This document shows, piece by piece, positions 43,284 to 46,532 of a stretch of DNA of 64,000 bases (its first letter is position 1; each line of letters opens with the position of its first letter). Made by a program: the position numbers and the translations under genes. Origin of the DNA: Spirochaetae bacterium HGW-Spirochaetae-1. Its GTDB lineage: Bacteria; Spirochaetota; UBA4802; UBA5550. The notes under the pieces were generated by a model. That model was not told where the DNA came from and made no database searches. It saw nothing but the letters and a program-made list of their open reading frames with translations. The stretch is from positions 62,001 through 126,000 of the forward strand of contig PGXY01000007.1 in assembly GCA_002839375.1 (NCBI GenBank). Direction: 5' to 3'.

Positions 43284-43312
43284 TTGACATTGTCCCGACA
43301 ATACTATACACT
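43284..43312 (+). promoter_or_regulatory. Promoter of the porin-cytochrome operon with a spacer palindrome
   Basis: TTGACA (43284-43289) is followed by TATACACT (43305-43312), giving a 15- or 17-bp spacer depending on the -10 chosen. Inside the spacer, ATTGTC-CC-GACAAT (43289-43302) is a perfect 14-bp dyad. A repressor or activator bound there would sit between the -35 and -10 boxes. Confidence 0.5.
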
Positions 43313-43330
43313 TTACAGAAGAGAATGCTT

Positions 43331-43933
43331 ATGAAAACATTGAACTGTATCCTTCTCCTGACTTCCGCACTGTTCCTCCTTAAGTGCAATCCCATGTATG
43401 AGGATGTTCAGGGGAAAATGCGCAACTCGCTCCACCCCTCCAGGCCCCCATTCAGCACCATATACCATGGGGCCTCATTCCGTTTCCCCTATGGCGCCTG
43501 CGATGAAGTGCAGTGCCACGGCGCAGACCTGCGTGGAGGTAACTCAGGAGCACCATCGTGCTATTCCTGTCACGGTAACAAGTGGACCATCTTTACAACG
43601 ACCCATACTCTTAAAGTGGCAGGCATATATCACCACACTGCCGTAGATACGGGAAGCACCACGGACAACACCTCATGGTTCAGCACGTGCAAGGACGCCG
43701 CCTGTCATGGCGTCAATCTGGAAGGTGTGGCAGGAGCGGGCTATCGCTGCCAGGATTGTCACAACCCTATTCCGGCTCCAGGACACCGCAGCAAGAAGGA
43801 AGGGGCATGGCATCACTTTAATTACAGTCATGAGAATCCATCTGTGTACTGCAGCGGTAGCGTATGCCATGGCGCAAGTGGTGAGGGTACCGGAACAACG
43901 TTAGCTCCCCCCTGTTCAACGTGTCATGATTAA
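43331..43933 (+). CDS. Hexaheme c-type cytochrome lipoprotein (alternating CX4CH/CX2CH)
   Basis: The 200-residue exported protein has a lipoprotein signal (LLKC) and six heme-attachment motifs in three pairs: CDEVQCH and CYSCH; CKDAACH and CQDCH; CSGSVCH and CSTCH. The CX4CH then CX2CH alternation is the hallmark of the Geobacter CxxxxCH/CxxCH cytochrome repeat (PF09698-like). It should lie on the periplasmic or outer face of the outer membrane and carry electrons. I start it at 43331, where AGAAGAG lies about eight bases upstream; an ATG two codons earlier is too close to it. The triheme protein and the barrel follow. Confidence 0.9.
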   Translation: MKTLNCILLLTSALFLLKCNPMYEDVQGKMRNSLHPSRPPFSTIYHGASFRFPYGACDEVQCHGADLRGGNSGAPSCYSCHGNKWTIFTTTHTLKVAGIYHHTAVDTGSTTDNTSWFSTCKDAACHGVNLEGVAGAGYRCQDCHNPIPAPGHRSKKEGAWHHFNYSHENPSVYCSGSVCHGASGEGTGTTLAPPCSTCHD

Positions 43934-44000
43934 CATGATGAATCGGCCGTTCTGTACGCTAATAATATTTTATATAGAAATGAACTCAGCAAAAGGATAT

Positions 44001-44315
44001 ATGAAACATAAAACGGCAATCATACTGCTGGTAATCACAGCCATCTTCGCCGGGGCCTGTTCCTTTTTCAGGCCTGCCGAAGAACACTCCTTCGGTGATG
44101 AGTGCAAGCACTGCCACGGAGAAAAGCTTCAGGGCGTGCATAACGTGAAAGCCACATGCGGACAGTGCCATGACCTGAAACCCATACGTCCCGAAGAAAT
44201 TACTGACGCGGCCCGCAAAGAGGCAGTTCTGTCGGAGCCCCACATACATCGTGTGAAAAACATGTTCAGCAGCACACCGTCATGCTTCAATTGTCATCGC
44301 AGGACAGATTTTTAG
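44001..44315 (+). CDS. Triheme c-type cytochrome lipoprotein
   Basis: The start at 44001 follows AAAGGAT, giving a 104-residue protein with a lipoprotein signal (GAC). It carries three CxxCH heme motifs: CKHCH, CGQCH and CFNCH. Helix-poor, charged spacing around the motifs is typical for a small exported multiheme carrier. The open frame reaches back into the previous gene but without a ribosome site, so I do not use that start. It sits between the hexaheme cytochrome and the beta-barrel and probably belongs to the same electron path. Confidence 0.88.
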   Translation: MKHKTAIILLVITAIFAGACSFFRPAEEHSFGDECKHCHGEKLQGVHNVKATCGQCHDLKPIRPEEITDAARKEAVLSEPHIHRVKNMFSSTPSCFNCHRRTDF

Positions 44316-44330
44316 GGACGAGGTACAACT

Positions 44331-45146
44331 ATGAAAAGCAGACTCATCGCCCTTTCGCTCATGATTCTTCCGATAATTTCAGGACCGGTTTTTGCCGGCG
44401 GTACCGTTCCCTACATCTTCAATCTTCCCACCTCCCAGACCAATGGTTCAAAGGTCTTTATTCTGGACGTGGGGCATCGTTATTTTGATGTCAACCGGCA
44501 CACCACCAACATAAACCTGTCCCTGTCCTATGGTATCATCGATCCCCTGGACGTACTCCTGGGCTACTCATTCAAAAATAAGGATATCGTTCTGAGCGGG
44601 AAATATAACATTCTCAATGACTTCAGCGCGAGTGATATCTTCTCACTTTCAATAGTCCTGGGCGGGGGATTCAAGGATACGAACGGTATCAATAACTCCC
44701 TGTCCCTGTCCTACGCCGACAAGGCGAACATCGATTCGCAGACCACACTCCCCATGAAGGACCGTCCCTCTTTTTTCACCCAGGCCGTCATGGAAAAACA
44801 TTTTTTCAGCAACAAACTGACCCTGGGCATTGTCCCCACCTTCGCCTATAACACCAATTTCTTCGGCATAAACAGCAGCTACGATTTTACCTTCGGCGCC
44901 GGGTTCCAGGCCGGTTATTACATCTTCGATCACGTGGCCCTCTGCAGTGAGGTGACCATGAATATCTTCGGCTTCGCCTTCAAGTACGTGAACTACAATG
45001 CCGGGGTAAAATACGCCGGATACCGGCACACCTTTTCCCTCTGGGTAGGCAATAGCGCCGGCTACTCACCCGTGGAATATGTTACGGGAAACAATGTCCT
45101 GACGCCAAAATTCAGCTTTACTTTCACGCGCGAATTTGATCTATAG
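44331..45146 (+). CDS. DUF5777-like outer-membrane beta-barrel
   Basis: The 271-residue protein has a signal peptide (about 1-22) and repeated amphipathic beta strands with aromatic girdle residues (SLSYGIIDPLDVLLGYSF, GAGFQAGYYIFDHV, SLWVGNSAGYSPVEY), ending in FTREFDL with a terminal hydrophobic residue as in outer-membrane barrels. The opening HRYFDVNRHTTNINLSLSYG is the DUF5777-like signature. Barrel plus multiheme cytochromes in one operon suggests a porin-cytochrome conduit for electrons. It starts 15 bp after the triheme cytochrome. Alternatively it is a barrel for another purpose. Confidence 0.82.
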   Translation: MKSRLIALSLMILPIISGPVFAGGTVPYIFNLPTSQTNGSKVFILDVGHRYFDVNRHTTNINLSLSYGIIDPLDVLLGYSFKNKDIVLSGKYNILNDFSASDIFSLSIVLGGGFKDTNGINNSLSLSYADKANIDSQTTLPMKDRPSFFTQAVMEKHFFSNKLTLGIVPTFAYNTNFFGINSSYDFTFGAGFQAGYYIFDHVALCSEVTMNIFGFAFKYVNYNAGVKYAGYRHTFSLWVGNSAGYSPVEYVTGNNVLTPKFSFTFTREFDL

Positions 45147-45803: not shown

Positions 45804-46532
45804 ATGCAGATCAACGAAACGGCAAAAACAAACTTTTCCGGCCTCAGCGCCAATCCCTATCCCGGAAGGGGCATTGTCATCGGCACATCCCCCGATGAAA
45901 CGAGCATCTATCAGATTTACTGGATCATGGGCAGAAGCGCCAACAGTCGCAACCGGATATTCCTGAAAGAAGACAACAATTTTCTCAAGACCAAGGCCTT
46001 CGACGAATCCAAAGTGGAGGACCCTTCCCTAATCATCTACTATCCCCTTAAGCATATAAAAAACGCCCACATCGTTACCAACGGCGACCAGACCGACACA
46101 ATTCATGAATCGATCAAAAAAGGCGGCTCCTTCGAAGACGCTCTGCACACGCGCGATTTCGAGCCCGACGGCCCCAACTTCACACCCAGGATTTCCGGCA
46201 TCACTGATCTGGACGACAAAAAATATATTTACCGGCTGGCCATTAACAAGACCATCGGCAACAACGAAAAATATCCCCTGCGTCAGTTCTTCTGCTACGC
46301 ATCGCCCCTGGCGGGTTTCGGCCACATGATCACAACCTATTCCGGCGACGGCAATCCACTTCCCTCATTCCAGGGAGAGCCGCTCATCGTGCCCATATTT
46401 GACAGCATCGGGGAAAACCTGAAAAACTACTGGGGAGCCCTGAACAGCGATAACAGGATATCCCTCCTGGTGAAAAAAATAGACCGCCGGGAAGGAACCG
46501 TTGAGATTGTCGTGGAGAACAAACTGGTTTAA
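45804..46532 (+). CDS. purO: IMP cyclohydrolase, archaeal PurO type
   Basis: The 242-residue enzyme closes FAICAR to IMP in purine synthesis. It has the archaeal-type PurO domain: NPYPGRGIVIGTSPDETSIYQIYWIMGRSANSRNRIF (about 17-53) and FFCYASPLAGFGHMITTYSG. Bacteria usually carry out this step with PurH, so the archaeal family is unusual but not unique. No other purine gene is adjacent. The start at 45804 follows an AGGAA by about nine bases. A terminator hairpin lies at 46579-46606. Confidence 0.88.
   Translation: MQINETAKTNFSGLSANPYPGRGIVIGTSPDETSIYQIYWIMGRSANSRNRIFLKEDNNFLKTKAFDESKVEDPSLIIYYPLKHIKNAHIVTNGDQTDTIHESIKKGGSFEDALHTRDFEPDGPNFTPRISGITDLDDKKYIYRLAINKTIGNNEKYPLRQFFCYASPLAGFGHMITTYSGDGNPLPSFQGEPLIVPIFDSIGENLKNYWGALNSDNRISLLVKKIDRREGTVEIVVENKLV

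Follow-up and report, generated by a model that had tools for sequence, protein, structure and literature searches.

The window, a 64,000-nucleotide stretch of contig C7 of a 5.2-Mb spirochaete genome (G000), contains two multihaem cytochrome genes followed by the gene of a predicted outer-membrane barrel. The first-pass annotation had described these genes as contiguous, and we found all three ORFs adjacent and on the same strand, downstream of a promoter-like site:

43284..43312, + strand: sigma-70-like promoter TTGACA-17-TACACT, 10/12 matches, just upstream of the cassette
43331..43933, + strand: hexahaem cytochrome, probable lipoprotein; 200 aa, three H..H..CX4CH..CX2CH repeats
44001..44315, + strand: trihaem c-type cytochrome, probable lipoprotein; 104 aa, three CXXCH motifs
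44331..45146, + strand: DUF5777 outer-membrane beta-barrel with signal peptide; 271 aa, PF19089 E 8.8e-17, ~12 strands predicted

The hexahaem and trihaem genes are separated by 67 bases, and the trihaem and barrel genes by 15. A single promoter at 43284-43312 is plausible for the cassette; promoter-like sites in the region are not above chance (2 found, 3.6 expected). The hexahaem ORF spans 43325-43933, and the alternative start at 43331 is favoured because the AGAAGAG just upstream fits it better than 43325. Haem motifs were present in only 2 of the 55 non-overlapping ORFs of the window, the hexahaem and trihaem genes, and these motifs are kept in five further genomes; they are therefore not a product of chance.

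Searches with the barrel returned six genomes of the order, G000, G180 and G162 from one family and G195, G071 and G158 from another (f3), and searches of a 59-genome set with the two cytochromes returned the same six. The full cassette was found in none of the other 53 genomes (Fisher p 2e-8 for co-occurrence, relatedness ignored). The trihaem protein occurred in no other genome of the 59 searched; outside the six, a hexahaem-like stretch was seen only in G013 and G003, where it resembles one unit of the protein. The order hexahaem, trihaem, barrel was kept in 6/6 genomes with unrelated flanks (the G158 contig is only 3.2 kb), at identities of 48-76% between barrels, 40-70% between trihaem proteins and 34-62% between hexahaem proteins. 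Co-occurrence in relatives, on which the first-pass annotation had made its proposal depend, is thus borne out, and the three genes are a conserved, self-contained cassette with a patchy distribution. The neighbouring genes, upstream a carbonic anhydrase and an SNF transporter and others downstream, were considered as further parts and discarded, as they are not conserved with the cassette. By barrel, the nearest named relatives are the Spirochaetota metagenome genomes HGW-Spirochaetae-5, RA.bin95, UBA5368 and SRR5215464_bin.19. The cassette may have been transferred horizontally, as the trees of six short sequences, one of them on a long branch, disagree: the hexahaem tree places G195 with G000 and G180, whereas the three f3 members stay together in the barrel tree.

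The hexahaem protein carries, in order, CDEVQCH, CYSCH, CKDAACH, CQDCH, CSGSVCH and CSTCH. It had been described as a lipoprotein with alternating CX4CH and CX2CH motifs; the alternation is strict, and lipidation is likely rather than certain because the lipobox of the window protein is weak (LLKC, with a non-canonical Lys at -1). The orthologues read ITC, AGC, LAC, LTC and LTC at this position, and a Cys behind the hydrophobic leader is invariant in all of them. Apart from the motifs, exactly six His residues are invariant in the orthologue alignment, equal to the number of haems (37, 48, 94, 103, 154 and 163, numbered from the 43325 start), and two precede each CX4CH/CX2CH pair. The alternating motifs recall the TIGR01904 cytochromes of Geobacter, but the protein does not match that profile (9.5 bits against a cut-off of 27, E 0.79). 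The same H..H..C..CH..C..CH unit stands alone in dihaem lipoproteins of other Spirochaetota (L027 and L028), which have CX2CH at both sites and with which no DUF5777 was detected; the hexahaem protein therefore looks like a triplicated dihaem unit. Sequence searches returned no relatives of it among solved structures, and its AlphaFold model (pLDDT 37) was set aside, so that no result rests on it. One in-frame TAA interrupts the orthologous gene in G180 (L029), and an apparent frameshift precedes the last haem pair in G195 (L031/L049); these may be assembly errors or decay. In G071 (L032) one motif, CGDTVTCH, has the spacing CX5CH in place of the CX4CH of its orthologues.

The three CXXCH motifs reported for the trihaem protein are present (CKHCH, CGQCH and CFNCH), and its lipobox, FAGAC, is ordinary-looking, in keeping with the earlier label of lipoprotein. 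Both cytochromes appear to be lipid-anchored. Here too the invariant non-motif His residues, exactly three (37, 81 and 83), equal the haems in number. Since spare His residues match haems 6/6 and 3/3, the most economical interpretation is a pair of His ligands on each haem, and both proteins look like all-bis-His, pure electron carriers. Against profile libraries, the two gave only generic c7/c3 matches, below cut-off, and the trihaem protein gave only generic cytochrome matches in sequence searches of solved structures. For haem attachment, the genome encodes two PF01578 cytochrome c assembly genes of CcmC/CcmF size at C4:290354-292648.

The assignment of the third protein as a DUF5777-like outer-membrane barrel held up well: residues 29-255 match PF19089, a 'membrane bound beta barrel' family, at 61.6 bits against a curated cut-off of 23.1, and an ordinary-looking signal peptide (VFA/GG) precedes them. 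No sequence relatives were found among solved structures. AlphaFold, working from an alignment of only five sequences, gave a low-confidence model with 12 strands (mean pLDDT 49.9, pTM 0.52), and at this pLDDT the true number of strands could differ by two. The best PDB fold matches to this model were mostly 12-stranded barrels, among them FapF, the COG4313 channel, OMPLA, LpxR, NanC and a designed 12-strand barrel. By standard barrel geometry, 12 strands enclose a lumen of ~6-7 A radius, as opposed to 18.5 A for 26 strands. MtrB of MtrCAB has 26 strands and Cyc2 has 16 (PMC8406198), while 18 and 21 are predicted for ExtB and ExtE (PMC6148476). Because known conduits have 16-26 strands, a haem wire inside the cassette barrel is unlikely; as modelled, the barrel looks too narrow to hold one. 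An alignment of 14 distant DUF5777 barrels shows His49 and His233 (window barrel numbering) and several polar positions unchanged throughout, a hint of a metal, haem or catalytic site in the barrel.

The cassette proteins are unlike the well-known Omb and Mtr families in sequence, as the first-pass annotation had recognized, and the barrel matches PF19089 only, not the MtrB family. The further proposal of an extracellular electron-transfer conduit is partly supported: the genes are a conserved unit of a barrel and carrier-like cytochromes, but comparison with known systems did not support the working layout of an Mtr or Omb conduit. The Geobacter clusters ExtABCD, ExtEFG and OmbB-OmaB-OmcB likewise place a barrel and multihaem lipoprotein cytochromes contiguously in one operon, but those conduits have 18-21 predicted strands (Ext), periplasmic 12-haem partners and larger cytochromes (PMC6148476), whereas the cassette has ~12 predicted strands, six plus three haems, unrelated sequences and no clear soluble periplasmic cytochrome. 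MtrCAB shares the pairing of barrel with multihaem cytochromes, and OmcA/MtrC-like proteins adjoin DUF5777 in two related genomes; however, the cassette lacks MtrA and MtrC, and its barrel is predicted to have ~12 strands against the 26 of MtrB. In Cyc2, the domain with the single haem is proposed to plug the mouth of the barrel instead of threading it, and the substrate enters the pore (PMC8406198). This pairing of a small barrel with a small cytochrome at its mouth is the proposed parallel to the cassette, but Cyc2 joins its one haem and 16 strands in a single polypeptide, whereas the cassette spreads nine haems and a DUF5777 barrel over three separately encoded proteins; it is not a Cyc2.

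The same barrel family occurs beside cytochromes elsewhere. A c-type cytochrome was nearby in 15/16 strong DUF5777 loci outside the window (counting the run-off frame of L040, below), and haem ORFs were enriched within 2.5 kb of DUF5777 (20/97, against 5/104 further away). In other Spirochaetota, strong DUF5777 genes adjoin YceI and a one-haem lipoprotein (L033, L034, L036 and L038); a profile confirmed the LIC11213 family lipoprotein in L036 and L037, the latter also with a six-motif cytochrome. Four plasmids from Bacteroidota (Emticicia, Hymenobacter, Persicobacter and Aureibacter) carry DUF5777 alongside YceI and the gene of a small c-type cytochrome lipoprotein, and the cytochromes of 2/4 of these clusters contain CX4CH motifs. 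Such clusters resemble the cassette in setting the barrel beside a cytochrome lipoprotein, but have mostly one or two haems and YceI, where the cassette has six plus three haems and no recognised YceI. Two further genomes showed the order YceI, DUF5777, OmcA/MtrC-like lipoprotein cytochrome: G220 (L039 4376-8041) and G178 (L040 6803-10898). The L039 cytochrome matched TIGR03507 (E 6.8e-58) at 196.6 bits, under the curated cut-off of 209.3, and the L040 frame, which runs off the contig end, was assigned by its similarity to L039; the label is limited to these two. Matches to PF22113 (MtrC/MtrF domain) were rejected as proof of OmcA/MtrC identity, as octahaem and c7-type cytochromes of the window's genome score against this profile as well. 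The MtrB family barrel (PF11854) was absent from all 12 genomes searched, including G220, G178 and the window's genome, and the weak DUF5777 matches L042-L044 had no cytochrome neighbourhood.

The association of the DUF5777 family with envelope cytochromes supports an outer-membrane redox role. Cytophagales are generally aerobic; those with DUF5777 are not known for extracellular respiration, and we would not expect it there. This occurrence, the one-haem partners and the barrel's predicted narrowness argue against a general role of DUF5777 as a classical Mtr-type conduit. We consider the family-wide link between barrel and cytochrome the most interesting part of the analysis, and found no paper on DUF5777 in the literature searched. 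DUF5777 barrels could be undescribed, widespread outer-membrane redox modules, each a barrel with cytochrome lipoproteins and usually YceI, which in some Spirochaetota replace MtrB/OmbB and support electron exchange with the cell exterior although no haem wire would fit inside them; in this full form the proposal is unlikely. Only a handful of barrel types are known for outer-membrane electron exchange, and no outer-membrane redox route has yet been worked out for the Spirochaetota and Bacteroidota lineages concerned. A minimal DUF5777 barrel with c-type cytochromes is a testable candidate for another such route.

For the cassette, we infer a probable role in electron transfer at the outer membrane, played by its two haem-rich cytochromes and its small barrel. 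Our preferred reading, held tentatively and at somewhat less than an even chance, is that the three genes are one transcription unit for a redox module whose cytochromes dock on the narrow barrel, Cyc2-like in principle. Both cytochromes would be lipid-anchored in the outer membrane beside the barrel. The trihaem protein would exchange electrons between the periplasmic cytochrome pool and the hexahaem protein, which would sit at a mouth of the barrel. A small redox partner (a metal ion, complex or shuttle) would then meet the electrons in or through the pore, with flow possible in either direction; since the barrel appears too narrow for haems, they would not travel along threaded haems as in MtrCAB.

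Other arrangements of the same proteins were weighed. The barrel might anchor the hexahaem lipoprotein or help to export it, so that it acts outside the cell as a terminal reductase or as the contact to an electron acceptor, fed by the trihaem protein or another conduit. Such display is suggested by G220 and G178, where one operon encodes DUF5777, YceI and an OmcA/MtrC-like surface cytochrome and no MtrB was detected. We nevertheless regard it as rather unlikely: the cassette has neither an export motif nor a Slam-like domain, the match to FapF comes from a low-confidence model, and the OmcA/MtrC assignment falls below its curated cut-off. Less probable again is a classical porin-cytochrome conduit, in which the barrel would sheath the cytochromes as a continuous haem wire across the membrane. 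The gene content (a barrel and multihaem lipoproteins), the strict co-occurrence and the association of DUF5777 elsewhere with OmcA/MtrC-like proteins all fit it, and yet the predicted ~12 strands and ~6-7 A lumen fall short of the 16-26 strands of known conduits (PMC6148476, PMC8406198), the cassette has no clear soluble periplasmic multihaem cytochrome, and related barrels in Bacteroidota pair with one-haem proteins. We consider this reading very doubtful.

A narrow barrel suits a substrate channel, and could be a selective pore that admits a soluble oxyanion or metal complex for periplasmic-side reduction by the lipoprotein cytochromes, no electrons crossing the membrane. There is precedent in Geobacter, where the porin ExtI is encoded within a cytochrome cluster and is needed for normal selenite and tellurite reduction (PMC5877670). 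The cassette includes no reductase, however, and two His ligands on apparently all haems suit carriers more than catalytic sites, which leaves uptake with reduction improbable, if slightly less so than the classical conduit. The least probable of the alternatives makes the barrel itself an outer-membrane enzyme or binding site (for a metal, quinone or lipid) served by the cytochromes, with the usual YceI partner carrying a hydrophobic ligand and the spirochaete cassette a derived version without YceI. The polar residues, His49 and His233 among them, that stay invariant across distant DUF5777 proteins would be explained, as would YceI adjoining DUF5777 in most other loci, and two 12-strand enzyme barrels, OMPLA and LpxR, are among the fold matches. 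Those matches rest on a weak model, though, and reading the flanks of the six cassettes by eye revealed no recognisable YceI.

The genome's stronger conduit candidate lies elsewhere. At C3:411511-416710 (L063:1511-6710), a 15-haem cytochrome, a 430-aa barrel-like protein with no Pfam match, 13- and 5-haem TIGR01904-type cytochromes and a dihaem protein form a cluster that fits the definition of a conduit better than the window cassette does. The barrel-like gene is shared by five other members of the family, G154, G102, G127, G139 and G020, in all of which an 11-17-haem frame is adjacent, and is absent from the other five cassette genomes. The idea that the cassette is a companion of this canonical conduit was dropped, as the two occur together only in G000. 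The C3 cluster makes extracellular respiration plausible for the organism, with no part of the cassette in it implied. Other parts of the periplasmic cytochrome network are an octahaem tetrathionate-reductase-family cytochrome with a haem/b561 fusion (L059, on C6, 4533-8398) and a Qrc-like menaquinone complex (L060, on C7, 5446-10076). Within the window, downstream of the cassette, 45804-46532 encodes an IMP cyclohydrolase-like protein (PF07826) that weakly resembles archaeal PurO and is unusual-looking in a spirochaete.
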